From: Azoarcus sp. CIB
GTDB lineage: Bacteria > Pseudomonadota > Gammaproteobacteria > Burkholderiales > Rhodocyclaceae
Direction of reading: 5' to 3'
Assembly: GCF_001190925.1 (NCBI RefSeq)
Contig: NZ_CP011072.1
Location: 1,488,001 to 1,552,000, forward strand
Length of the DNA stretch: 64,000 nucleotides
Below the pieces are notes generated by a model that was not told the DNA's origin, ran no database searches, and saw nothing but the letters and a program-made list of their open reading frames with translations. Position numbers and translations under genes: made by a program. Of the stretch, positions 21,560-61,326 are shown piece by piece. The stretch's first letter is position 1; each line of letters starts with the position of its first letter.

Positions 21560-21650
21560 GGAGAGATGGATGAGTGGTTTAAGTCGCACGCCTGGAAAGC
21601 GTGTTTGGGATAACATCCCAACGCGGGTTCGAATCCCGCTCTCTCCGCCA
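21560..21650 (+). tRNA. tRNA-Ser (anticodon GGA), CCA encoded
   Basis: 91 bases that fold as a serine tRNA with a long variable arm. The acceptor stem is GGAGAGA/TCTCTCC, the anticodon arm CACGC-CTGGAAA-GCGTG with anticodon GGA, the variable arm TTGGGAT-AACATCCCAA and the T arm GCGGGTTCGAATCCCGC. The 3' CCA is encoded. An integrase gene starts 91 bases downstream, so the 3' end is the likely attachment site of the island. Confidence 0.98.
21620..21650 (+). other. Probable integration site (att) at the 3' end of tRNA-Ser
   Basis: Tyrosine integrases of genomic islands commonly target the T-arm and acceptor 3' end of tRNA genes, and this tRNA is followed at once by such an integrase. The intact tRNA shows the island restored the 3' end on insertion. 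I did not find the expected second copy of GAATCCCGCTCTCTCCGCCA in the window. Confidence 0.55.
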
Positions 21651-21741
21651 GAACTTCTAAGTGGCTGAATTGTAAAGGTCTTTTTTCAGCCATTCTGACG
21701 CAAGCGCTCCACTTAAGTGCTCCACTTATAAGGAGCCGCAC

Positions 21742-23262
21742 ATGCGTCTTGCCGCCCGAAATCTTCGACTCCGTCACGGGATCTGGCACCTCAGGGTCTG
21801 CGTCCCGAAGCACCTGCGGCCTCATTTCCAAAAGAACGAGATCTCGCGCTCGTTGCATACTTCGGATCGTCGGCAGGCCAGCGTTCTGCGCCATGGCTAC
21901 CTGTCTCAGGTGATGGAGCTATTCAGTCGTGTTGAAAAACTCCTCGCGACCCGGCACCATCCGCTGGACTTGAGTTGCTTGGGTTTGGAGATGCCGGATT
22001 TTCGTTTTCCGCAGTGGCGTATACAGATTACGCAGGATGACAAGACCGTCGAACTCTCGACGGAGCCTGGAAACTTGGAGGACCATCGTCTAGGTCTGGA
22101 CGCCCTGTCGGTCCTGCTCTCCAAGGGTGACGTGACTGTTGCGCACGGCGTCGGACGGGCGCCTTCCGTGCACGGGAATCGCAAGCGGCTGTCGGAACTG
22201 GTCGAGACCGTCTTCAATGAGGAAAAAAACCGGTGGTCGAAAGCGACAATGATCGACTACCGCGGCGCCTTGAACGATTTCGTCAAGCGACTTGGCGACA
22301 AGTACGCCGATGAAGTCTCCAGTCAGTCCATCGCGAGCTACACGCAGGCCTTGCGCGACTGCGGGACTGCGCAGCGGACAATTGACAAACGCCTGAATCC
22401 GATCGCCGCGCTCTTCAAACTCGCGCAGCGAGACGGTTACTATCCGCCAGGAATTCCGCTTCCTACGACCGGCCACTTCAAGTTCAGGAAGGTCACCAAT
22501 GCGAAGACCAAGGGGCGCGGAGGCTTCGAGTTCTTTGATGCCGCGGATTTGAAGAAGATTTTCGATCCAGCGAACTTGTCTGCAGCGCGGACGCCGCATG
22601 AGTTCTTCCTGCCGTTGCTCGGCTTACTCACCGGCGCACGCATCAATGAGCTCTGTCAGTTGGCCTTGACGGACGTGCGTGTGGACGACGACATCGGTGT
22701 TGCCTATCTCGACATCAATGGCGACCGCGAGGATGCCAGTGTGAAAACCGATTCTTCGCCCCGATGGGTCCCTTTGCACCCAAAACTTGTTGCTACCGGG
22801 TTCCTTGAGTATGTCGCTGCCGTTCGCAAGTCGCCCGGCGCAACACTCGTATTTCCCTATCTTCGATATTCCGAAAAAAATGGCTATGCGGGGGCTCCCA
22901 GCAAAGCATTTGGCCGCTACCTCGACAAGATCGGTGTTGTTGGTGCGGGGAAAGTATTTCACTCGCTTCGCAAGACGTGTAACCAGCGACTTCTCGAGGG
23001 GGGCGTTTCCGTGGAGATCCGCTCTGACTACTTGGGACATGAGAACGAAAATGTGAATAGCGTTGTTTACACGCGCGGCTTGCAGCTCAAGAAGCTGGGC
23101 GAGGTTGTGCACCCGCACCTTGATTTTCCCGAGATTGACGCCGCGAAATTGCGACCAGCGTGCGATCGTCTGATTCAGACGATTGATCAGCTCATGTCCA
23201 AAGCCAAACGCGATGCTGCGCACGAAGCAGCGATGAAAACTCGAGTGAAGACGAGGGGCTAG
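21742..23262 (+). CDS. Tyrosine recombinase/integrase of the island
   Basis: 506 residues. The N-terminus (LRHGIWHLRVCVPKHLRPHF) resembles DUF6538-type integrase N-domains. A SAM-like core-binding domain spans about 145-235 and the catalytic domain about 265-470. Catalytic residues are in place: R300 (LTGARINEL), K335, H407 and R410 (HSLRKT), H433 (LGHENE) and Y443 (VVYTRG). AAGGAGCC precedes the ATG. It reads away from tRNA-Ser and would integrate or excise the island. Base composition is less GC-rich than the core genes before it. Confidence 0.95.
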   Translation: MRLAARNLRLRHGIWHLRVCVPKHLRPHFQKNEISRSLHTSDRRQASVLRHGYLSQVMELFSRVEKLLATRHHPLDLSCLGLEMPDFRFPQWRIQITQDDKTVELSTEPGNLEDHRLGLDALSVLLSKGDVTVAHGVGRAPSVHGNRKRLSELVETVFNEEKNRWSKATMIDYRGALNDFVKRLGDKYADEVSSQSIASYTQALRDCGTAQRTIDKRLNPIAALFKLAQRDGYYPPGIPLPTTGHFKFRKVTNAKTKGRGGFEFFDAADLKKIFDPANLSAARTPHEFFLPLLGLLTGARINELCQLALTDVRVDDDIGVAYLDINGDREDASVKTDSSPRWVPLHPKLVATGFLEYVAAVRKSPGATLVFPYLRYSEKNGYAGAPSKAFGRYLDKIGVVGAGKVFHSLRKTCNQRLLEGGVSVEIRSDYLGHENENVNSVVYTRGLQLKKLGEVVHPHLDFPEIDAAKLRPACDRLIQTIDQLMSKAKRDAAHEAAMKTRVKTRG

Positions 23263-48124: not shown

Positions 48125-49528
48125 TCACTCGAAAAGGCTGGACTGCTTGACGATGTAGCCCGCTGGCTTCTTCTGTTTCTCGATCACGCCTTCGTCGACG
48201 AGACGCTGAAGCCACGTCTTGGCTTGGGCGGTGGAGACGCCCAGCGCAGCGGCAACTTCGGCGTCCTTCATCGGGGCCTTCAGCAGCAACTGGATCACTT
48301 CCCGGACAGCCGCAAACAGCGTATCCGCAGGTGTGGACGCCGTTGTCGCCACAGGGCTGGCTGCTTCGGAGGTGGTCTCAGATGCCAGTGCAGCCGATGA
48401 GGCGGGCTCTGGCGTCAGCTCAACCTGTTCGTCGATGGGTGCAGCGGCGGATGGCGGCATTGGCTCGCTCGGCGCTTCGATCGCGGGCGTTGTCTCCGGG
48501 AACGAGGGGGTCGTGGGTGCAACGCCCGACGTTCCGTCTCCGGAAATCAGTGCAAGGCCTGACTGCGGAGATGGCACTGGAGTTGGTGCAGCGACATCGA
48601 ACACACCTTCAAACGCGTCAGCGTCTTGCGGGTTCGGCCAAGGTATCGCCCCCTTGCTGCGCAGGGCTTCGAGTCCGGGAGACGACTCGCCCGTGGATCG
48701 AACGTACACGGGCACGAACTTGAGCTTGGCCAGTTGTTCGACGGCACCAGCCCAGGTGCCGCCTTTGTTGAGATCAGAGCTGACGACCAAGGATGCGTCG
48801 GCCAGCGCATAGATCAGCTTGTTGCGCTGCATGGCGTTTCCAACGTTGAATCCTGCGCTCGGGTCGTAGGGCGAAATCAGCACCAGTTGGCCATCGAGAA
48901 GCAGGTTGCGGTGCTCGCGGTTCATGGTCGTTTTTTCCAGACTGTCTGCGAGGACGCCACTGACCTTGCCGCCAGCTTCAAGCGCACCGCGCATGGCGGC
49001 CTGATCGATGCCTTTCGCCCCACCCGATACGAGTGTTCTTCCCGCCCGCGCCGCTAGCCGGCCAACAGCCATCGTGTAGTCGATCAACGAATCGTCCACG
49101 TGACGAGATCCGACTACGGCGAGGCCACCCGACTCCAGCAAGCCCATTTCGCCGCAGCCGTAGATCACTGCTGGGGCGTCTTCGCGCAGGCGCGCCTTCA
49201 AGCGGCGGGGGTACTCGGCATCAGCGCGGCTGACCACCCAGATGGCGCGCGCCTGCCATCGCTCGATGACTTGGCTCAGGAGGAAGCCACGCCCTAACAA
49301 GCGCTGCAGACGGGCTTCATCAATTACCGGCTGGCAGGCACGCAGTAGATCTGCCGCATCGGGCGACACGAGGTCCGCAGGCTGGCGTTGTATCTCCCGC
49401 AGGTGGCGGGCGAGGCGCTTGTATTCGCCGGGCGACAGAAGCTCCGATGACGATGTACCTCGCCCAGCGATCAGCGGCGCCGTCAGTAGCAGGATCGCCT
49501 GGGTGTTGGGGGACAAGGTGGGCGTCAT
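48125..49528 (-). CDS. DprA-like Rossmann protein with winged-helix tail
   Basis: 467 residues from ATG 49528, overlapping the RecQ stop (ATGA). The centre is a DprA/Smf Rossmann domain ([10 protein letters not shown] ... [20 protein letters not shown]). A Pro/Ala/Ser-rich linker of about 110 residues and a C-terminal winged helix follow ([33 protein letters not shown]). DprA normally loads RecA on incoming single-stranded DNA. Here, between a RecQ-like helicase and brxF, it more likely senses or handles foreign DNA for the BREX locus. The long linker is unusual for housekeeping DprA. Confidence 0.82.
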
Positions 49529-51603
49529 TCGTCGTGCCCCGTTTGAGAGAGTGCCATCGGCCAGACCTCGCCACTTCCGCTCTTGCGTAGCAGCCACGCA
49601 GCCACGGTCAGCGTCCAGCGTGAGTCCACCATGTCGTCGACCAAGATCACCGGCCCATGCGGGACCGGCTGACCGGTGAGTGCCAACGAGCCGTCGATGT
49701 TGCGCGCTTGCTGTGTACTGTTTGCCATCGTTTTCTGTTCGGGCCTATCGTCTGTTTTCGCAATGACGATATGAAACGGCAGACCCAGAGCCGCAGCCAA
49801 GCGTTTCGCAAAATTGGGGACGAGATCGGGGTGACGCAGCGATGGAACGCACGTCACCCAGGTCGGTTTGGGGTGGGGGTTCCATTCGCGAACCATCTTC
49901 AAGCACGCCGCAACCAGGTCATCGGCAAACTTGCCGTCGTGATACTTGCCTTGCCGGACCAGGCCGCCCCAACCAGCGTCACCCCATACACACAGCGCCT
50001 TGCCAGGCTGCGATTGGTGGTCAGCGGCAATGAATCCCTTGGCGCCGTACTGGGGCATTCCCCCATCAGGCCATTTTTTGCGAGGATCGATGGGCAGGCT
50101 AGTGCGCTGAAGAAATGCGATGGCGTCCCGAACCAAGGCCTCATTCACACCTGTTGGCAGTGGGGGAAGTGCAGGCTGCGTGACAACACTAGGATCACCG
50201 TCGAGCGCGCTGATCAGGAAGCCCATGTGATCACCGAAGGGCAGACTGACATACTCCTGCATCTGCTGATGTTCGTCACGCCGCAGGGCCGTGAGTCGTT
50301 CGGCTCGCGCCCAGAACCCCTCGCTCAGCGTGGCTGCTGTGAGCTGCCACTTGGTGCCCTGTTTGGCGATGGGCGCTGGTGCTTCGAGGGACAGCAGCGC
50401 GATCGTCTTGTCGACGCGCCCCTTGCTCAGGTTGACGCGACTGAGCAGTTCGGGGACAGACAGGCCGTTTTCTTCTTCCTCAAGTGCGCCCAAGACGTCG
50501 GCGACTTCCTGGCGGGTCGGAAAGGCGCTGCGGATAAACCAGTCGGTGATGTCCGACTCTTCCTGGCCGCTGAGCAGCACACCGTAGGCGGAGTTCAGCG
50601 CGCGCCCCGCACGTCCAACTTGCTGGTAATACGCGACGACGGAGCCTGGCATTTGGTAATGGATGACGAACGCCAGATCGGGCTTGTCGTAGCCCATGCC
50701 CAACGCCGTCGTTGCGACCAGCGCCTTGACCTCGTTGTTGAGGAGGGCCTGCTCCAGCGCTTCTCGACGGTCGCCCGTTTCGCCCGTGTAGGCCTCGACA
50801 TTGAAGCCCCGGGTCTTGAGCCAATCGGCGACTTGGTTGGCGTCGCGCACCGTCAGCGTGTAAATGATGCCGTGGCCTTGCAGCGTGGCGAGTTGCTCTG
50901 CCAGCCAGGCAAGGCGCTCTGCCTGGCTGGGCAGGCGGATCGTTTGCAGGGAAAGAGAGGTCCGATTCAAGTCGCCGCGTGAGACGTCCAGCTTTGGACC
51001 GAGCACGGCAGCAAGGTCCTCCATCACGCGGTTGTTCGCCGTCGCTGTGGTGGCGAGGAGCCGAAGATTCGGCGGCAGCGTTTTGACAATCCGTTCCAAC
51101 AGGCGGTAGTGAGGACGGAAGTCGTGACCCCAGTCGGAAATGCAATGAGCCTCGTCGATGACCAGCATCGAAATCTGAGCGGCGATCCCTGCCAGGACCT
51201 GCGTGCGGAAGCGCTCGTTCGCCAGGCGCTCGGGTGAGATCAAGAGGATGTCGACTTGCCCACGGGCAAGTTTGGCCTCGACTTGGGTCCAGTCATCAAC
51301 GTTGTCGGAGTTGATCGTGGCGGCGCGAACGCCCATCCGTTCCGCTGCGGCGATCTGATTTCGCATCAGCGCGAGCAGCGGCGAGATCAGTAGCGCGGGG
51401 CCATTGCCGCTGTCGCGCAGCAGCTTTGTCGCGATGAAGTAGACGAAGCTCTTCCCCCAACCTGTCTTCTGAACGACCAGCAAGCGGCCTCGTCCGTCGA
51501 CGATGTGGCGAATCGCATCTTCTTGGCCGTCACGGAATGTGGCGTCGGCGCGTCCCGAACCGATTCGGAGAAGTTCCAGTGCGCGTGTTGGATCATAAAC
51601 CAC
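49525..51603 (-). CDS. RecQ-like helicase fused to a phosphoribosyltransferase-like domain
   Basis: 692 residues from a GTG at 51603, just after the WYL gene stop, with AAGGGAG about 10 bases upstream. RecQ helicase motifs are KTGWGKS (46-52), [33 protein letters not shown] and [10 protein letters not shown]. The end resembles a type I phosphoribosyltransferase ([24 protein letters not shown] ... [15 protein letters not shown]). It is coupled to the DprA-like gene. It probably unwinds DNA in a DNA-sensing step; the transferase domain may bind nucleotides rather than catalyse. Confidence 0.88.
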
Positions 51604-51604
51604 G

Positions 51605-52510
51605 TTATTGCTCTCCCTTATCTTGGTCAGGGGAGCGGTACCCCGGCGCCAACACAGCATTCTTGACGCCGTATAGCGCCAGGTGATCTTTCAGCCAGAG
51701 CCTGAATTCGTAGCCGCGCAGGCTGTGGTCGGGCGAGCAGTCCACGCTCCATTTGCGCAGGATGTATCCGGCCGTGGCGGCACGCAGCTTCATCCGCAGT
51801 ACGCCGTCGCGCATGCCGTAATCCATTTCGGTGATCTCCGGCCGGGGTTGATCCGGGTGCGGCACCAACTCCAGCTCGACGATCCGGGTCCACTGAATGT
51901 CTTGATCGCTCAGCTCGTGGGGCGCCACTGGCTGGCCCTTTAGCACGACGGGGCGTCTGATCCGGGTGATGACGAAATCCCGGAACTCCTGGGACTTCCG
52001 GTCGAAGCCGCGGACGTGCCACCGGAGGCCGTTGTCGATCAGCGCGAACGGGACGATCTCCCGCTCAGTGCGGCCACTGGAGATGGAGTGGTACTCGATG
52101 CCGAGCGGACATTCCTGATGGATCGCCCGGGTCACGCTCGCGAGCACATCCAGATCCGGGTGTGTGAGCCGTGAAGGGCTTTCGCTGGCCACCCACGCCT
52201 TGAGCCGCATCGGCTCGCCATCCCCAAAACCCTGGGTCAGCCACGACAGCACGCGCTCCGCAGGGAAGTCGAAAACTGGCTGAAAGTCCGGCCCAAGGAC
52301 GTAGGACTTACCCTTGGGATCGTAGTCGATGTTGCCGGGTGCCAAGTCCTTGTACAGCGCCAGATCCCTGGATGCTGCGGCGGACTGAATGCCAAACCGC
52401 GTCACCAAGTCCTGGCGGCGTATCTCCCCGACGAAGCGCACGCGCAACTCCACGAACGCGAGGCGGTCGCGTTGTGGCTGGGTTAGATCTGCAAGCTGCT
52501 CGTTCCACAT
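51605..52510 (-). CDS. brxR: BrxR-like WYL-domain regulator, first gene of the BREX operon
   Basis: 301 residues: an N-terminal winged helix (RLAFVELRVRFVGEIRRQDLVTRFGIQSAAASRDLALYKDL), a WYL domain (PLGIEYHSISSGRTEREIVPFALIDNGLRWHVRGFDRKSQEFRDFVITRI) and a WCX-type end. BrxR proteins of this architecture sit first in many defence operons and repress their own promoter. A strong promoter lies upstream. Likely autoregulates the nine genes behind it. Confidence 0.88.
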   Translation of the reverse strand: MWNEQLADLTQPQRDRLAFVELRVRFVGEIRRQDLVTRFGIQSAAASRDLALYKDLAPGNIDYDPKGKSYVLGPDFQPVFDFPAERVLSWLTQGFGDGEPMRLKAWVASESPSRLTHPDLDVLASVTRAIHQECPLGIEYHSISSGRTEREIVPFALIDNGLRWHVRGFDRKSQEFRDFVITRIRRPVVLKGQPVAPHELSDQDIQWTRIVELELVPHPDQPRPEITEMDYGMRDGVLRMKLRAATAGYILRKWSVDCSPDHSLRGYEFRLWLKDHLALYGVKNAVLAPGYRSPDQDKGEQ

Positions 52511-52791: not shown

Positions 52792-53757
52792 TCACAGCGT
52801 TTCCAGCCCACGCTTGAGCTGGTCGCGGACCTGGGACTTTAGTGGATCGGGGCCAAGCACCTTGACGTCCGGTACGTGACGCAGGATGTCCATAGCGAGT
52901 TCGGTCGGGTTGCTATAAGGCACCCGCAGCCTGAAGCTGCCGTCCGGCAGAAATCGTCCTTCCTGGTCCGGATGCCAGACCTCCCGGCTGACCCAGCGTG
53001 CCCGCTCGGCCGTGAATTCCAGTTCGGCCCACTCCACATCTCTACCCGCGAAGATGCCGTAGCCTCCGTCGAGCGTGGCCCGTATCTCTTCGTCCGGAAT
53101 TTCGAGCGAGATGTCGCTGTCGAGCGAGACCTCGATGATTGCATCGAGCGCGAAACTGCGCAGTTCCTCCCTCAGGTGGCACCACGCGTCGAGATACCAG
53201 GCTTCGCGGTAGAAGGTGAGGCGTTGCGGCGACACTTCGCGACGGATGGTCTCGTCGCGTGAACGGACGTAGTGGTCGATGACGAGGCGGCGGCGCTGTA
53301 GGACTCCCGCTGCAATCGGGGCGAAGTGTTTCGGGTCGTGCCGGCGTGCGGCTTGGTGGTGAAAGCGGATGCGTTTTTCGACGGTGTCCGCCCGGATGTC
53401 GCCCTTGTCGAGCAGCGCACGCAGCCGTGCGAGGAGCGGTTCGACGTGCGGTGCAAGAAGGCCGGGCTCGAGATCCTTGAGCAGCTGTTGCATGGTGAGC
53501 AGCGCATAGACCTCGGAGGCGTTAAACCACAGGCCGGGCAGCTCATAGCGGGGCCCCGTCTGAACCTTGTCGAAGCGATAGCCGCCGGCCTCCCGATCCC
53601 ACACGATGGGAGCGTTGAACCGCTCGCGGAGGTATTCGAGATCGCGCTTGAAGGTCGCGAGCGAAACCTCGAGTTCGTCCAGGAATGTCTGCAGCGGAAC
53701 AACCTGATGCTCATGAAGCAGCCGGTCGATATGATAAAAGCGTTCAGTGCGATCCAT
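52792..53757 (-). CDS. HTH-WYL regulator beside the MoxR/MetK-like operon
   Basis: 321 residues from ATG 53757 with AGGA about 10 bases upstream; the frame is open 27 bases earlier. A DeoR-type helix-turn-helix (PLQTFLDELEVSLATFKRDLEYLRERF) precedes a YafY-like WYL domain (RRRLVIDHYVRSRDETIRREVSPQRLTFYREAWYLDAWCHLREELRSFALDAI) and a WCX tail. It is different in sequence from the BREX regulator 280 bases away. It follows the MetK-like gene on the same strand, separated by a gene remnant, and probably controls that operon. Confidence 0.85.
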   Translation of the reverse strand: MDRTERFYHIDRLLHEHQVVPLQTFLDELEVSLATFKRDLEYLRERFNAPIVWDREAGGYRFDKVQTGPRYELPGLWFNASEVYALLTMQQLLKDLEPGLLAPHVEPLLARLRALLDKGDIRADTVEKRIRFHHQAARRHDPKHFAPIAAGVLQRRRLVIDHYVRSRDETIRREVSPQRLTFYREAWYLDAWCHLREELRSFALDAIIEVSLDSDISLEIPDEEIRATLDGGYGIFAGRDVEWAELEFTAERARWVSREVWHPDQEGRFLPDGSFRLRVPYSNPTELAMDILRHVPDVKVLGPDPLKSQVRDQLKRGLETL

Positions 53758-53829
53758 CGGGCCTATCCTAAGGCATACCGTCATAGCATAGCGTCTTCAT
53801 CACGAGGACGTTACCTGAAGTGCGTGATG

Positions 53830-53983: not shown

Positions 53984-54994
53984 TCAGATCGAACCATAAC
54001 GTTTCCGCATCACGTCATGCCTGAAGAACTCTGCGGGAACCCGCTCGCCCCGCCCGGACGTCTCGTAAGCAACATCTAGTGGCACAACGGTGTTGGGCGC
54101 ATAGGCGAGCCGTACCAGGCACTCATTGGCTCCGGTCCTCACCATATGAAGGGCCGCTTCGCGTGCCGCTTTGGCACCTATACGGTCGATATGCGTCGGG
54201 TGCTTTCCTGCCAGGGCTCCGCCCCCGATGGGCACGCGGGGCCCATAGAAATCCATAACGAGCTTGCGACCAGTCTGCCCATTGTCGCCGTCGCTGCCCG
54301 CTTCGATCATTGGGCCATTGGGGTTGAGCAGCAATTCGACATCATCCCAGCGGGTCCTCCAACGAGGATCGGCCCTCCGGGCCGCCTCATAGGCGTCCCT
54401 CAGGACACTAGCCAGCTCCTCACACACTGAAGTGAAGTCAGCTCCTGACGACTGTTGTAGCGTGACGAGTAGATGTTCCATCCGCCATTCATCGCCTTCC
54501 TCACGTATGCGGACCATCAGCTTGCCGTCGGGCCCCTGACCGGAAAGCGTTCCGCTCATGCAGGACTCGAACAATATCTGCGCGAAATGATGTGCCAGGA
54601 AATGCTCGGGTGGGAGCCACTTGGTCTTCTGGTCGTAACCTGCCCATCCAATGACGATACTTTGGTCGTTCACGTGGTGCGACCACTGTCTCGGGTCCGC
54701 AATGCGTTGGCATACCGCGTCGGTAACGTGATATCGAGTGGCGTCAATGTGATTCCCCGGTTGATACCCGATCGCGAGCCCAGTGCTGACAACGATTTCG
54801 TCCAGCTGACGAGCAAGCGGCGTGCGCGTGCAAAGTCCGCCGGAAAGCCAAACCTGATCGGACCAGACAGAGACCTCGACCTGGCAGTACGCATCCGAGT
54901 CGGCTCTCAGGGATTCAGCGACGACCGCATCGGCCACGCGGTCGCAAAACTTGTCCGGGTGGCCGGGAAGGACCACCTCGCTAATTCGAATCAT
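53984..54994 (-). CDS. Truncated S-adenosylmethionine-synthetase-like protein
   Basis: 336 residues against about 384 for housekeeping MetK. Landmarks remain: GHPDK (11-15), ND-Q (109-111), K158, TGRK (241-244), GGGALAGK (257-264) and ID-R near 270. The position equal to E. coli K269 is His268 (PTHID instead of PSKVD), and the C-terminal 45 residues are missing. Its start overlaps the zincin/VWA stop (ATGA). It may make SAM, a SAM analogue, or hydrolyse ATP/PPi for the system rather than for general metabolism. Confidence 0.85.
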   Translation of the reverse strand: MIRISEVVLPGHPDKFCDRVADAVVAESLRADSDAYCQVEVSVWSDQVWLSGGLCTRTPLARQLDEIVVSTGLAIGYQPGNHIDATRYHVTDAVCQRIADPRQWSHHVNDQSIVIGWAGYDQKTKWLPPEHFLAHHFAQILFESCMSGTLSGQGPDGKLMVRIREEGDEWRMEHLLVTLQQSSGADFTSVCEELASVLRDAYEAARRADPRWRTRWDDVELLLNPNGPMIEAGSDGDNGQTGRKLVMDFYGPRVPIGGGALAGKHPTHIDRIGAKAAREAALHMVRTGANECLVRLAYAPNTVVPLDVAYETSGRGERVPAEFFRHDVMRKRYGSI

Positions 54995-56376
54995 GCTGGC
55001 AACCTGTCGAGTTGGGTGTAAGGCAGTCCCGCTCTCTCGAGCTCTGCACCATTGCCGTCTCGTGTGAGCAGGACATGAAGCCTCGTGCCGGCAAGTTTTC
55101 CGACGATAGCCCGATCAAGGCGCTCGATGTAGCCGTCAGTGACTACGATTGCCGCACTTGGCCTGGTCTTGAGGACGTGCGCCAGCACGCAAGTCATGGA
55201 AGTGCCGCCAGTCGTTTCGGTTTTGAGCTGGCCGCTTTCGATCCGGGCTGGCGCGACCACGTCGCTGAAGGCCCAGAGCGGGCGCCGGATGTAACGTGAC
55301 AGGCACTGTAGCAAGGCGATGATTTCAGGCATCTCTGCATACATCGACCCGGAAACGTCGAGATAAATTTGGGCGGATCCATCTGGTCGCAGCCGCTCCA
55401 TCGACCAGGTGACATCCGGGAGGAACCTAGACCACCTACAGCGAAGGAACGCGCGCCGATCTGTCGGCGACAGAATCGGGAGGCGAGCTTCGTCAAGGTG
55501 GGGGGAGTGCGCCCGTGAGCGATGGTCAGGTGTGAGGTGGCGCTTGAGCACTGCGAGCGTCTTTCGCCGCCAGCGTGCCGTGGGCTCGTTCCTGGCAACG
55601 AACAAAGCTTCGTAGGGATTCGTTCCCACTCTTCGCGACGAAGGCGCACGCCATATTCCTCCGCCATTCATTTGGCGCAGTGCCTGATCGAGAACTCTGG
55701 CGAGCGCATCGGGGAGCGGACCGGCGAGCCCGTCGTGATTTCCGAAGAGATCCGGAATGATCTCGGAGCGAAGCACCTCGTCCAGACTGAACGGCGCCGC
55801 ACCCGCATTTGGCTTGCGACGGGAGACGGTGTTCGCGAGGCTTTCGGCCAGTTCGGCAATGTCATCGGCAACGAGGCATCCCTCGTAGAGAGAGGCCCAT
55901 GCCCGGACCCATCCCGGAACTGCATTTTCGCCACCTTGCAGTGATTGCGAGGCGAGGGCGGCGAGCTCCTTCTTGTTCATTGGGCGCAGGAGCTTGCGCA
56001 GGTCCCGCACATCGCTGTAATAGCGAGACATGAGAGACGACCACTTTGGCCCGAAGCTGCGATGAATGATGGCGTTGATCACTGCATCGAACGCGAGATG
56101 ACGTGCCGGCGTGATGAGGTCGATGTGCTCGGTATGGCGCAGGAGCACATGAAGGAACTCGTGACAGATGACCGCCTTCACCTCGGTGTCGCTTCGGCAG
56201 TGCAGTTTGACGAAGTCGAGATTGACCAGGAGGACGGGCTTTTCCTCGCAGGTCACCGCGAGCGTGGAAACCTTGTCGGTGAAGCGCACCTCGCAAAGTT
56301 TCAGAACCGCGCGCACCGCCAAGGGGTTTTCCTCGACGAGTTCCTCTGTGAGGTGACGAAACTGCAGCGGCGTCAT
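54991..56376 (-). CDS. Zincin-like and VWA-like protein (DUF2201 type)
   Basis: 461 residues. The N-terminal region holds CHEFLHVLLRH (HExxHxxxRH, residues 71-81), a metallopeptidase signature. The C-terminus is a VWA-like domain with MIDAS-type YLDVSGSMY (D340, S342, S344) and GGTS near 391. Proteins of this kind pair with MoxR AAA+ ATPases, as here. It is coupled to genes on both sides by 4-base overlaps. Confidence 0.86.
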   Translation of the reverse strand: MTPLQFRHLTEELVEENPLAVRAVLKLCEVRFTDKVSTLAVTCEEKPVLLVNLDFVKLHCRSDTEVKAVICHEFLHVLLRHTEHIDLITPARHLAFDAVINAIIHRSFGPKWSSLMSRYYSDVRDLRKLLRPMNKKELAALASQSLQGGENAVPGWVRAWASLYEGCLVADDIAELAESLANTVSRRKPNAGAAPFSLDEVLRSEIIPDLFGNHDGLAGPLPDALARVLDQALRQMNGGGIWRAPSSRRVGTNPYEALFVARNEPTARWRRKTLAVLKRHLTPDHRSRAHSPHLDEARLPILSPTDRRAFLRCRWSRFLPDVTWSMERLRPDGSAQIYLDVSGSMYAEMPEIIALLQCLSRYIRRPLWAFSDVVAPARIESGQLKTETTGGTSMTCVLAHVLKTRPSAAIVVTDGYIERLDRAIVGKLAGTRLHVLLTRDGNGAELERAGLPYTQLDRLPA

Positions 56377-56840
56377 GCATAGAACTCGGCCGGATCGTAG
56401 AGCTCGAGCCCGCGTGTGAGGCTCGCCTGCGTCCAGATGACCGCGCGGGACGGGTCGTAGCGAAAGGCTGTACAGAGGCCGAGCAGCAGCGCTTGTTGGA
56501 GCACCTTCTCGCGAAGCGCTTCCGCGACCTTGAGCCGCTGGTGATCATCCGCAAGTGCGCGACAGAGGTAGGGCCGATCAGGCGGAGGGAAGCGCTCGCG
56601 TAACGCCTCCGGAGTCGTGAGGCCCTCGGTGGCGAGCATCTGGTGAAGATGCTTGACCGGGTCGACGCCCTTCCGAAACTCAAGCCCAAGTCTGATGATC
56701 ATCGGGCAGCGGATATGCCCCGTGTCCCGGCCGAGCAGCGAGGATGCGATGCGCACACTGCGCGTGCGGCTCATCGGTCCGCCGATGTTCGCATGAAGCG
56801 GATGAATGGCGCCGAGGTCTGCGGAATGCTGGCAGAACAT
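56373..56840 (-). CDS. Hypothetical protein of the MoxR/MetK-like operon
   Basis: 155 residues from ATG 56840, whose first base is shared with the MoxR stop (a GTG three bases upstream is the alternative start). Sequence starts MFCQHSADLGAIHPLHANIGGPMSRTRSVRIASSLLG and ends ELYDPAEFYA. No known motif is recognised. The obligate overlap on both ends shows it is a stable part of this operon. Confidence 0.65.
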   Translation of the reverse strand: MFCQHSADLGAIHPLHANIGGPMSRTRSVRIASSLLGRDTGHIRCPMIIRLGLEFRKGVDPVKHLHQMLATEGLTTPEALRERFPPPDRPYLCRALADDHQRLKVAEALREKVLQQALLLGLCTAFRYDPSRAVIWTQASLTRGLELYDPAEFYA

Positions 56841-58231
56841 CACGCAAGCCCTCTTCGGCGAATTTCCTGCACGCAGCCTTCAATCTCCTTCTCTAGCGCG
56901 CCGGGCTCACCGACGACCAAGTGCTGGACAACGCATGCGTTGAAAAACTGCTGCGCCCGCTCGTACCGGGCGCCCTGGAGATCGCTCAGAATGCGGACGT
57001 AACGGGAGAGGTCGCCATGCTCACTGTTCTGCTGGTTCAGTCGCTCCTGCCACGACACCAGGCCCTCGGTGGTCAGCAAAGGGCTCGCGAGGCGAGCCAG
57101 ATCATTGACGCCTTCTGGACCGATCGGAAGCTTTCCCATGGCAGCCGCGGGATAGACCGCGAAGGCGAAGGCGGCACTTTGCTCACGCGGCGCAACGGCA
57201 ATGAGTTGCGAGACGGCCTGGGTGCCTGCATCCGGATCCCTGCATTCGTCAAGCAGGATTGAAAGCTTTCGGGGAAGACTACGCTCGGCAAGAAAGCGAT
57301 GGATCCAGTGTGTTTCGCCGGGTGTGGCACTTTCCCAGGCAACACGGTGCGCCGCTGCAAGGACTTCCTCAGCAACGGCCACGCCCCAGCACGGTTGTGG
57401 CAGCGAGGCGCGGAGGATGGTGCGGAAGATTCCTTCCGTGGCATCGCCGACAACGATCGTCGCCGCGAAGAGGCTGCGCGCGATAAGACGTGCGCGGCGA
57501 GGTGAAATCCGAACGCTGGCACCGTTGAGCGCCGTGGTGGCGGCGGCGGCATAGCGCACGATGAATTCGGGGCAGCTGTCGACGCCGGTGACAAAGGCGC
57601 TCCGCCATGTCTCGATCCGCTCCTTTAGGACGCCTCCATCATCGGCGATACGACCTTCGCCGCCGGGCAACGTGATGCTGCGACGGTCGTCCTCCGACAG
57701 ATCGTCCCAGTCCGCGGCGGAGACGAGGAGCGCGAACCGGTCGGCGAGCGCGGGATCGAGCGGTTCCGAGCCCGCATACTCCTCGATGGCGTCTTGGTCA
57801 CCAGAGCATGGGTTCATTGCAGCCCATCGGTAACGAAGCTTCGGAAGCGCAATGCCTTGGATGCGCCGCTCATGCACCAGGGAAAAAAGGCGGTTCTGGT
57901 GCTCGGGTTTGCATCGGCTGATTTCGTCGATAAGGACTGATTCTGCGCCCCACACCGTCGCGGGCGTTTCAAGAAACCGCACGCCGCCCGACGCCTCGTC
58001 TGGATAGGGGAAACCCACCAGATCGTCGAAGGAAATGAGGCTAGCGTTGTAGTGTCGATGATTGAGCCCGAGCGCTTCGGACAACGAGTTCAAGAGGTAT
58101 GTCTTGCCCGTGCCGGAGCGGCCGATGAGGATCATCGGGTCCTCGGTGACCAGCGCGGCCAGGATCACCGTCTCAACCGGTTCGAAGCCGAAGACGCCAA
58201 GCGAGGCGAGACAGCTTTTGGCTGCGCTCAT
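56840..58231 (-). CDS. MoxR-type AAA+ ATPase
   Basis: 463 residues. Walker A is GRSGTGKT (37-44). Walker B is ESVLIDEISRCKPEHQNRLFSLVHERRIQG, then WAAMNPCSGDQDAIEEYAGSEPLDPALADRFALLV, the MoxR sensor and arginine-finger region. The rest is helical. MoxR ATPases remodel or load partners that carry VWA domains; the VWA protein is two genes downstream. Start overlaps the upstream gene (ATGA). Confidence 0.9.
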   Translation of the reverse strand: MSAAKSCLASLGVFGFEPVETVILAALVTEDPMILIGRSGTGKTYLLNSLSEALGLNHRHYNASLISFDDLVGFPYPDEASGGVRFLETPATVWGAESVLIDEISRCKPEHQNRLFSLVHERRIQGIALPKLRYRWAAMNPCSGDQDAIEEYAGSEPLDPALADRFALLVSAADWDDLSEDDRRSITLPGGEGRIADDGGVLKERIETWRSAFVTGVDSCPEFIVRYAAAATTALNGASVRISPRRARLIARSLFAATIVVGDATEGIFRTILRASLPQPCWGVAVAEEVLAAAHRVAWESATPGETHWIHRFLAERSLPRKLSILLDECRDPDAGTQAVSQLIAVAPREQSAAFAFAVYPAAAMGKLPIGPEGVNDLARLASPLLTTEGLVSWQERLNQQNSEHGDLSRYVRILSDLQGARYERAQQFFNACVVQHLVVGEPGALEKEIEGCVQEIRRRGLA

Positions 58232-58659
58232 CGGTGTTTTTCCTGAACGGTGTTGTATTGAGCCGGCACGTCGAACTCGAATCCGCGGGCCATAAGCCAG
58301 CGGACGATACTTTCGCCCTCACGGGCCATCTCGAGGGGGTCGTCACGCACGAGCCGCGCCTCCAGGCCCGGAAAATCTACCGGTCCGCTACGCTCGAACA
58401 TGATGTCGGGGTGCTGCGCAATCACTCCGCCATGACGGTCGGCAATCGCACAGCAGCGTTGCGTGTCTATCCCGGCCGCCCGTAGTTCGGCCAGATACTC
58501 CTCCAGATCCTGGCCCGACATGCTGCCCAGACCGAAGAGATAGCGATCCTCCGCTGCATACGGGTAACGGGCGCGAAACCCGGCCTCGCCGCCGGGAAAA
58601 TGATGTCGCACGGCGCTCTTCTTGAGCACGATCATCAGGAATACGACGGGAAGAGTCAT
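58228..58659 (-). CDS. Hypothetical protein, first gene of the MoxR/MetK-like operon
   Basis: 143 residues from ATG 58659: MTLPVVFLMIVLKKSAVRHHFPGGEAGFRARYPYA. A hydrophobic N-terminus could be a membrane anchor or signal. The rest is soluble and unrecognised (MSGQDLEEYLAELRAAGIDTQRCCAIADRHGGVI). Its stop overlaps the MoxR start. A longer GTG start at 58722 is possible but lies within the ribosome site of the short upstream frame. Confidence 0.65.
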   Translation of the reverse strand: MTLPVVFLMIVLKKSAVRHHFPGGEAGFRARYPYAAEDRYLFGLGSMSGQDLEEYLAELRAAGIDTQRCCAIADRHGGVIAQHPDIMFERSGPVDFPGLEARLVRDDPLEMAREGESIVRWLMARGFEFDVPAQYNTVQEKHR

Positions 58660-58715
58660 CGCACACATCCCCAGCCCCGGATGTCGGGCGGCGAAAATGG
58701 GACGAAAGGCAACAT
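58656..58715 (-). CDS. Possible 19-residue leader peptide
   Basis: ATG 58715 follows AAGGAG by 6 bases and reads MLPFVPFSPPDIRGWGCVR, stopping in an ATGA overlap with the next start at 58659. The ribosome site belongs to this frame and not to the larger gene, whose translation would be coupled to it. Too short to be sure it is a real peptide. Confidence 0.4.
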   Translation of the reverse strand: MLPFVPFSPPDIRGWGCVR

Positions 58716-58807
58716 GGCGCACTCCTTTTTAGCGGCTTCGCCGAACTCGCAGGGCCGCGAGCTGGATCGACTCCCCTCGCCCGTCAGGTGGGCGAACCAT
58801 TGTGTGT

Positions 58808-58838
58808 ACTATAAAAGAATGACATGCGCATTTGTCTA
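58808..58838 (-). promoter_or_regulatory. Candidate promoter of the MoxR/MetK-like operon
   Basis: On the minus strand TAGACA (58838-58833) and TATAGT (58813-58808) are one mismatch each from consensus but 19 bases apart. Between them lies the palindrome ATGCGCAT. Transcription would start near 58800, about 85 bases before the leader frame. Confidence 0.5.
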
Positions 58839-59904: not shown

Positions 59905-61266
59905 CTACATTTGGTCGTCCTCGGGACGCTGTTCGAACTGTGCCTTGCCCTGTGCACGCTTGCGCCGCAGGAAACTCGGCGCCGCCGCCTCGGTGGCCAT
60001 GTCGAAATGCAGTTCGTCCTTGGCTGAGACCCGCGCTGCCATCCTGCGGCTCGAGTACATCGCCTCCTTGCGGAAGCGTGCGATGTCCATCTCGCTGGCG
60101 AGATCGGCGATCGCGTCGAGGACCTCCATGACCCACGGATGGTCGGCGAAGCGCTTGCGGCCTTCGGCAAGCATCTTGTGGATCGTCTCCCAGTCGCCAC
60201 GCTCGGCGGCCGCCCGCGCTTCGGCCAGGAACTCGCCCGCCTCAAGTTCGGTGAGCCGCGCGACGACCCGCGGATCGGTGAGCAGCGTGTCCCAGGCCTG
60301 CGGCGACAGCACCTTGCTCACCAACGTAGCGTCCGCCATGGCGATCGGCAGCCCGTCCGGTGTGCTCGCCGTGACACCGGCCTGCAGGAGGACATTGCCG
60401 GACTCGAGCGCCAGTGCGGCCGGAATCTCGAGTTCGACCAGCGCCCACGCTTCCGCACCATACGGCACGTCGGGTAGACGGATGAGCGGGAAGCCTTCGC
60501 GCTCATCCACCATGTAGTCGTTGAGCAGCCGGATGCCCACCCCGGTCGGCGCCGACAAGGCGAGGCGCACGTGACGCGCGTACAGGCTGGAGATGAAATC
60601 GAACTCCTCGGTGAAGGGCTCGAAAAGATCCGCTGCGGTGTCGCCGTAGTAGTGATTGCCCCCACCGCGCCGGCCCATCTCGACCATCAGGTCCTCGTTG
60701 AAGTCGCTGCCCAGTCCGTACGTAGAGGTGGTCACGCCCTTTTCGGCGGCTTGGGCGCAGAACGCGGCGATTTCTGCGGACGCCAGAATTTCGCCGGCAT
60801 TGGCGTTGCCGTCCGAGAGGAGGATCACCCGGGCCAGGGCAGCGCTTGCGGCGGTGTCGAGAAGCGTGGTGACGCCGGCCCTCCAGCCGCCGTAGAGGTC
60901 GGTCGTGCCGCCGGAACGGATCTGAGCGAGGGCTGTGTGGAGCGCGCTTCGATTGCCCACCGGTTTGGCCGGCACCAGGGTTTTGACCTTGTCATCAAAG
61001 ATGACGAGTGAGGCGATGTCCGTCGGGTCGAGGCGATCGATGATGTGGCGCGCGCAGCGCACCGCCTGCATGAGCGGTTCGCCCGACATCGATCCGGAGC
61101 GGTCGATCACGAGCGACAGGTGATAGGGCTTACGGGGTGCCGAGCGGGTCGGATCGGCGTCGGGCGCCTGCACGCGCACCAGCACGGGCAGCTTCTGCGC
61201 CATGCCATTGATGAGGGCCGGCTTGAGAGGGGTGATCAGAATCTGCGGAATGGTGTTATTTGTCAT
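59905..61266 (-). CDS. VWA-domain protein
   Basis: 453 residues from ATG 61266, preceded by GGGAG; the frame is open 69 bases earlier. A VWA domain occupies about 45-220 with the MIDAS motif VIDRSGSMSG and RSGGTTDLYGG. A beta-rich region follows (LALSAPTGVGIRLLNDYMV), then a helical C-terminus with a charged end. No signal peptide or membrane segment is seen, so it is cytosolic. It resembles metal-dependent adhesion VWA proteins that act with ATPases; the MoxR protein downstream is a possible partner. Confidence 0.83.
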   Translation of the reverse strand: MTNNTIPQILITPLKPALINGMAQKLPVLVRVQAPDADPTRSAPRKPYHLSLVIDRSGSMSGEPLMQAVRCARHIIDRLDPTDIASLVIFDDKVKTLVPAKPVGNRSALHTALAQIRSGGTTDLYGGWRAGVTTLLDTAASAALARVILLSDGNANAGEILASAEIAAFCAQAAEKGVTTSTYGLGSDFNEDLMVEMGRRGGGNHYYGDTAADLFEPFTEEFDFISSLYARHVRLALSAPTGVGIRLLNDYMVDEREGFPLIRLPDVPYGAEAWALVELEIPAALALESGNVLLQAGVTASTPDGLPIAMADATLVSKVLSPQAWDTLLTDPRVVARLTELEAGEFLAEARAAAERGDWETIHKMLAEGRKRFADHPWVMEVLDAIADLASEMDIARFRKEAMYSSRRMAARVSAKDELHFDMATEAAAPSFLRRKRAQGKAQFEQRPEDDQM

Positions 61267-61326
61267 TTCGTCATCTCCCATTCTGCCGGCGCCATCGCCA
61301 GCACTGGGTGGGACGATAGCGGGCGG

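Follow-up and report, generated by a model that had tools for sequence, protein, structure and literature searches.

A four-gene MoxR, zincin/VWA, and MetK-like cassette conserved across bacterial phyla and carried on a genomic island of Azoarcus sp. CIB

Do five tightly packed genes of Azoarcus sp. CIB, one of them encoding a relative of the S-adenosylmethionine (SAM) synthetase MetK, form a system of their own, and if so, is it a defense system? The genes occupy positions 53984..58659 of a 64,000-nucleotide stretch of contig NZ_CP011072.1 (1,488,001 to 1,552,000 of the forward strand), which we call the window and to which all coordinates refer unless a locus is given. A sequence-only reading had proposed an undescribed five-gene defense operon joined by 1- or 4-base overlaps, and the coordinates of the open reading frames bear out both the five minus-strand genes and their junctions: adjacent genes overlap by 4 bases, and the MoxR and U156 genes by 1 base if U156 starts at the ATG at 56840. 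The membership of the set, on the other hand, had to be redrawn. U143, the upstream reading frame that overlaps MoxR (58228..58659 from its ATG, with a GTG at 58722 also listed), is without relatives at 87 cassette loci, among 299 further genomes of the order, or within the plasmid collection, and was rejected as a fifth member. U143 is private to the window, and the conserved core is MoxR – U – zincin/VWA – MetK-like. In the window, all on the minus strand, these four are: a MoxR-clade AAA+ ATPase of 463 residues (56840..58231, assigned by AAA_5 and PDB profile matches); U156, a small protein of unknown fold (56373..56840 from an ATG or 56373..56843 from a GTG, defined by a 46-member alignment); a 461-residue zincin metallopeptidase-like and VWA protein (DUF2201_N + DUF2201; 54991..56376, assigned by family alignment); and a 336-residue MetK-like (SAM-synthetase-family) protein of the divergent type D1 (53984..54994, assigned by Pfam, residue table, and clade).

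The case for a four-gene unit rests on its recurrence in other genomes. A MoxR-only profile scan of one genome per species (84,980 species) found at least 194 relatives, a lower bound because the scan used two short peptide patterns. Loci were built from 80 of these relatives and one contig of a viral collection, 81 in all; the 53 with at least 3.5 kb after MoxR were counted, and the 28 shorter ones were left out, although 13 of the 28 have a MetK match (in two of these a fragment or fused piece only). Counted as profile matches on six-frame reading frames, U is present at 53/53 loci with room for the cassette, the zincin/VWA protein at 52/53, and MetK at 49/53; MetK lies downstream at 43 of the 49 (and upstream as well at four of these) and upstream only at the other six, with a seventh upstream-only locus, L061, just under the length limit. 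Overlapping start/stop junctions, scored on our own gene calls from a home-made caller that chose the wrong strand in some GC-rich loci (L022, L043), join MoxR to U at 44 of 55 junctions, U to zincin/VWA at 51 of 54, and zincin/VWA to MetK at 38 of 52. The phyla named are Pseudomonadota, Acidobacteriota, Verrucomicrobiota, Bacteroidota, Armatimonadota, Myxococcota, Gemmatimonadota, Planctomycetota, and others; most of the relatives are metagenome bins, whose naming and binning may err. Rather than being scattered, the set thus stays together as a conserved operon across many phyla (49/53 loci), in line with the sequence-only reading.

The distribution of the cassette is patchy. A zincin/VWA search of the order matched 6 of 399 genomes, host included, and the six loci carry MoxR, the middle protein, zincin/VWA, and MetK in the same order (one locus is split over two contigs, and another ends with its contig before MetK); the zincin/VWA profile matched 1 of 398 genomes of the phylum, where at most four candidates were scored per genome. 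As a control, 18 housekeeping MetK loci of cassette genomes contain no MoxR, U, or zincin/VWA of the cassette kind; from this, and from the MoxR-DUF2201 pairs outside the family, which lack U and MetK (below), we conclude that the four genes belong together and that the MoxR-DUF2201 pair is not generally accompanied by a MetK. Flanking genes are not common to the loci; beyond the four, only small groups recur.

The four genes also evolve together. Pairwise distance correlations among the four proteins are 0.77-0.93 (40 loci), as against 0.36 between the cassette MoxR and the housekeeping MetK (18 genomes, one point of the 18 not being independent since the “housekeeping” MetK of L084, L146, is its upstream copy), and the set therefore travels as a unit. 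U is the most divergent of the four, with a median distance of 1.5 compared with 0.8 to 1.0 for the others. In four close pairs the ratio of nonsynonymous to synonymous substitution rates (dN/dS) is 0.09-0.42 over all genes; all four are under purifying selection, and the value of 0.12-0.14 for MetK argues that the MetK-like enzyme is maintained. The set has been transferred horizontally, but transfer by plasmid or phage was considered and rejected: the zincin/VWA protein has no match in the plasmid or phage collections; the cassette MoxR has only distant partial matches in plasmids, none covering 80%; and three scans of the viral collection found one contig with MoxR-U-zincin/VWA (L099/L179), which may be bacterial because its downstream genes are shared with a Rhodospirillaceae genome.

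What might the MetK-like enzyme do? That it is the host's only SAM synthetase, which would have undercut the sequence-only reading, is rejected: the host genome, a single contig of 5.26 Mb, has a separate housekeeping MetK that scores 240 bits against the C-terminal domain model, and at least two MetK matches were found in all 18 cassette genomes tested. The window protein scores about 67-69 bits against that same model (S-AdoMet_synt_C) and 53 bits against S-AdoMet_synt_N, both over the cut-off, and 27 bits against S-AdoMet_synt_M, just under it; against TIGR01034, the equivalog for functional MetK, it reaches 141.5 bits, short of the cut-off of 309.4.

Residue counts, given in E. coli MetK numbering, cover 58 divergent sequences, 45 of type 1 (D1) and 13 of type 2 (D2), and leave out three MetK fragments and five of the 31 housekeeping MetKs, whose motif was missed by our script. 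The residues that we take to contact triphosphate or metal (H14, D16, K165, R244, K245, K265, and D271) are all present in the window protein, R244 being K in D2; in the divergent enzymes H14, D16, E42, D118, and K165 are kept in 58/58, D238, K245, and K265 wherever the letter is present, and D271 in 53/54. Among the residues that presumably form the methionine site (E55, Q98, K269, and I302), E55 is kept in 0/58 and Q98 in 6/58, I302 is P in all 54 sequences with a letter there, and K269 is H in 40 of 42 D1. New residues are near-fixed in D1: Q40 (44/45), N117 (41/45), W178 (44/45), N227 (43/45), and P229 (41/45). The cassette enzyme thus resembles MetK in three-domain homology and in its triphosphate and metal residues, but differs in having its methionine-site residues replaced, a shorter gating-loop stretch (22 residues in type 1 and 24-25 in type 2, compared with 29-31 in housekeeping MetK), and a short C-terminus. 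In the MetK tree each type, with 42 rows for type 1 and 12 for type 2, falls on one side of a branch; the two unite in a single, fully supported clade, which is separated from the housekeeping and upstream MetKs by about 2.4 changes per column. To judge from these sequences, the methionine pocket of the divergent MetK-like enzymes looks rebuilt, not decayed. Two irregular copies may be mentioned here: at L060:9974-11500 one frame joins the ATPase part of MoxR to the C-terminal domain of MetK, either an in-frame deletion remnant or a fusion, and at L077:13143-14365 (Cnuella takakiae) the MetK-like gene runs over two frames, being either broken or the victim of a sequencing error.

The other three proteins differ in how readily they can be placed. 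The window MoxR scores 35 bits against AAA_5 (cut-off 22), and its profile matches midasin and RavA in the PDB; a quick tree divides MoxR into type 1 (67 rows, including that of the window) and type 2 (16 rows). By eye no kinship is seen between the middle proteins of types 1 and 2, yet their profiles match (probability 92%, E 8e-7, 13% identity), so all four genes are common to both types. Searches of Pfam, NCBIfam, and PADLOC, within the limits set, gave no match for U156 or U143. The window zincin/VWA protein alone gives a weak match to DUF2201 only (21 bits, under the cut-off), but its identity is clear because 60 relatives could be aligned: at E 0.01, DUF2201_N, a putative metallopeptidase, is matched by 45/60 and DUF2201, a VWA family, by 32/60; the HExxH...H motif has H72, H76, and H81 in every member and E73 in nearly every one; D340, S342, S344, T392, and D414 of the VWA metal site are likewise invariant; and all 60 members have one architecture, with a single DUF7123 match as the only sign of another family.

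The setting of the cassette bears on the second part of our question. The sequence-only reading had placed it in a defense island, and rightly so: PADLOC finds the BREX genes PglZ, BrxH, and PglX and both PsyrTA genes in the window, BREX and PsyrTA adjoining the cassette; Pfam adds DUF6079; and an integrase starts 91 bases past a tRNA-Ser (window 21560-23262). The left flank is matched in 17/17 genomes of the genus searched; in four of these relatives similarity ends at 21652-21654, directly past the tRNA, and their next 18.7-19.2 kb have no match to the next ~100 kb of the host. As similarity ends at the tRNA and the cassette MoxR occurs in 1/17 genomes of the genus, the host only, we place the cassette in a strain-specific, tRNA-borne island; no convincing second copy of the tRNA-Ser end, as an attachment-site repeat, was found in the host genome. 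That the set should move together near defense genes holds for the moving together, but flanks at other loci mix defense-type with ordinary metabolic genes (Pfam on flanks, cassette side only). Among the PADLOC matches listed (E 1e-15), 65 families came from 137 of 155 flank genes near cassettes in 18 genomes and 27 from 149 of 238 genes beside housekeeping MetK; in this comparison of overlapping families rather than proteins, defense-type neighbors are weakly commoner near the cassette. BREX linkage as a rule was rejected, there being no recurrence at the 87 loci beyond a helicase match in three, and PglZ in 8/21 cassette genomes. We consider a defense role plausible on three grounds: the island here, the patchy distribution, and the weak excess of defense-type families elsewhere.

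We tentatively suggest that the cassette is a horizontally transferred four-protein machine, a MoxR-driven zincin protease with its own adenosyl-making enzyme and a stress or anti-invader role, a reading that we regard as a serious possibility though not yet a probable one. MoxR would assemble into a ring powered by ATP; in the zincin/VWA protein, the VWA half would serve as the MoxR adaptor and the zincin half as the protease; U, the fastest-evolving part, could be a recognition or substrate subunit; the MetK-like enzyme would bind ATP, Mg, and K, cut out triphosphate as SAM synthetase does, and make an adenosyl product of the SAM type that only the machine uses; and this product might permit or set off remodelling and proteolysis driven by MoxR, most likely as a response to stress or to an invader. 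Most cassettes carry the divergent enzyme with its rebuilt amino-acid pocket, which makes free L-methionine an improbable nucleophile there; our guess would be a peptide-bound methionine or another thioether. A fuller version, in which the cassette is a mobile immune or stress system of many phyla, its divergent MetK-like protein is a new kind of adenosyl-transferring enzyme that adenosylates a non-free methionine (in U or in a target) or another thioether, and the resulting tag or signal activates the MoxR-zincin protease, seems unlikely to be right in all its parts. Were the four-protein machine real, a SAM-synthetase-type enzyme would be added to the chemistry of MoxR-VWA machines, ATP-to-adenosyl chemistry would be tied to regulated proteolysis, and a core metabolic enzyme would apparently have been re-tooled in a family with no fewer than 194 MoxR relatives.

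We wish to stress that a number of findings weigh against such a machine. Specifically, i) only 2 of 2000 shuffles gave a correlation with housekeeping MetK as high as the 0.36 above, so that some vertical inheritance accompanies the travel of the set; ii) no MetK is in reach at four of the 53 loci (L031, L055, L085, and L099); iii) D2 keeps K269 (12/12) and F230 (13/13), and D1 keeps Q98 in 6/45; iv) neither U nor the zincin/VWA protein has a solved relative in the PDB; v) as to defense, none of the window's BREX and PsyrTA proteins is seen again at the 87 loci, save for a generic helicase match in three; and vi) a canonical-type MetK is the sole one at seven loci, four more loci having both types, so that, if a canonical enzyme can stand in, the product needed may be SAM itself.

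This last point leads directly to an explanation that we think unlikely but take seriously, namely that ordinary SAM is the product of the cassette MetK, which would provide a local or inhibitor-resistant source of it for SAM-using defense or metabolic enzymes, for example during attack by a phage SAM lyase that degrades SAM or blocks the housekeeping MetK. The upstream canonical-type MetKs found beside 11 cassettes keep E55 (11/11), I302 (11/11), and Q98 (10/11); the seven that stand alone cluster together and away from the housekeeping MetKs of their hosts, with the place of L086 unsure; those of L019 and L043, from different phyla, form a second group apart from housekeeping MetKs; those of L026 and L084 sit with, or are, the ordinary MetK of their own genome; and the neighbor here is BREX, a user of a methyltransferase. 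A simple supply of SAM nevertheless fits poorly with a divergent majority that lacks the methionine-site residues, with the absence of any recurring SAM-using enzyme among the flank gene groups, and with PglZ in no more than the 8 of 21 cassette genomes noted above.

Nor need the cassette serve defense at all, although we doubt the alternative, in which a MoxR-VWA pair inserts a cofactor into a host enzyme or repairs it, with the MetK-like enzyme as the maker of an adenosylated cofactor for it. CbbQ/O, NorQ/D, and magnesium chelatase are MoxR-VWA-type pairs that work in assembly. A role in assembly is attributed to known MoxR-VWA pairs in PMC7159879, the architecture of the cassette is fixed, with none of the swapped effectors of MoxR-vWA conflict systems, and many metabolic genes lie in its flanks; but no client enzyme recurs beside the cassette among the flank gene groups, and the distribution is patchy (1/17 genus genomes, 6/399 order genomes). 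We consider it improbable that the MetK paralogue is instead a decoy or guard, baiting phage proteins that attack SAM synthetase so that their binding unleashes MoxR and the zincin: another MetK is present in the host and in every cassette genome tested, MetKs of both the divergent and the canonical type are able to take this position, as a bait could, and phage inhibition of SAM synthesis is reported, but near-fixed new pocket residues together with retained catalytic ones suggest a ligand or a reaction rather than bait alone. A chance neighborhood or decaying island remnant is scarcely credible, for even though members are lost at some loci (for example L031) and a single frame at L060 combines MoxR with the end of MetK, all parts are present at 49/53 loci in many phyla, the trees are correlated, and dN/dS is well below 1.

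How does the four-gene cassette compare with known systems? RavA-ViaA likewise combines MoxR with a VWA protein, and the MoxR profile reaches RavA in the PDB (E about 9e-4); but the RavA-ViaA pair lacks a MetK, RavA is matched over the AAA core only, and we know of no zincin in ViaA. In the two-gene MoxR-DUF2201 module, MoxR adjoins a DUF2201 metallopeptidase/VWA protein as it does in the cassette, but there is no U or MetK match at L149 or L150 (about 3.7 kb each, with short flanks), no U and no MetK at the annotated plasmid loci of Streptomyces and Mycolicibacterium, and neither beside the distant MoxR-DUF2201 pair of viral contigs L180 and L181; a third plasmid locus, in Azospirillum, has MoxR only. 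On the two viral contigs, of 178 and 112 kb, the pair (L180:7836-10963 and L181:5827-8387) is in the opposite gene order.

The closest comparison is with ternary systems. As described in PMC7159879 and PMC12839542, MoxR-VWA pairs spend ATP on remodelling the proteins that VWA holds, and there are MoxR-vWA-centric conflict systems with a third component, sometimes with a fused peptidase; the former source treats VWA as the substrate-capturing partner of MoxR and distinguishes VMAP, iSTAND, FtsH, and beta-propeller ternary classes (Kaur et al. 2020, PMC7159879). The cassette is like these ternary systems in its MoxR and vWA core (a pair in one operon at 52/53 loci), its third, fast-evolving partner, its patchy distribution, and a peptidase on the vWA protein, to which one is sometimes fused there; and it is unlike them in that i) no VMAP, FtsH, or beta-propeller partner is recognizable from Pfam families, none of which U matches, and U, at 155 residues, is in our judgement short for an iSTAND NTPase; ii) the cassette zincin is N-terminal and fixed, whereas the C-terminal effectors of the ternary systems are swapped, and the 60 members show no hypervariable C-terminal effector; and iii) the cassette adds a MetK-family enzyme, MetK and SAM synthetase terms being absent from the main text of PMC7159879. 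In PADLOC-DB 2.0.0 no specific model matches: MoxR draws only generic ATPase hits, and MetK one weak Cas6 hit. The open-licence literature searched (subscription papers and supplements lying outside its scope) holds no description of the four-gene set, although an earlier one may exist elsewhere. The set thus resembles the MoxR-VWA systems with a MetK-family enzyme added, and we found no name for it.

The remaining features of the window concern expression of the operon. The promoter of its own with which it had been credited is suggestive only: a possible TAGACA-19-TATAGT was picked out by eye on the minus strand at 58808..58838, but a consensus scan found none on the minus strand upstream of the operon with spacers of 16-18, a range that excludes a spacer of 19, and a promoter and terminator scan gave no signal above chance. 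A possible 19-codon leader reading frame (58656..58715, minus strand) has AAGGAG upstream and a stop that overlaps the ATG of U143, both read by eye. The neighboring HTH-WYL gene, in turn, is borne out by Pfam as an HTH-WYL-WCX protein, a possible regulator, downstream of the operon on the minus strand (52792..53784, or with its start at 53757), and its relatives lie near the cassette at 4 of 87 loci. The window carries two WYL regulators; by gene order, the PsyrTA pair is at 48125-52510, and the second WYL regulator starts one base past the end of PsyrT.

Several smaller observations concern the neighbors of the cassette. A gene family found near MoxR in nine loci lies upstream in L019, L021, L053, L096, L097, L040, and L044 and is inverted in L033 and L035; the two members scanned (L019 and L053) are DUF3293, possibly an accessory gene. 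A protein of ~85 residues is encoded directly upstream of the cassette in L057, L058, L061, L063, L066, L067, L069, L070, and L072, all nine named as Verrucomicrobiota or their families; the one member scanned has only a weak DUF6538 match. In the window itself, a VWA protein at 59905-61281 adjoins an ADP-ribosylglycohydrolase, and its relatives lie near the cassette in five loci (L015, L093, L097, L048, and L052), adjoined by a MerR regulator in L052 and L093. Finally, the tRNA-Ser site appears to be an island hotspot, since the four genus relatives each carry different DNA there.

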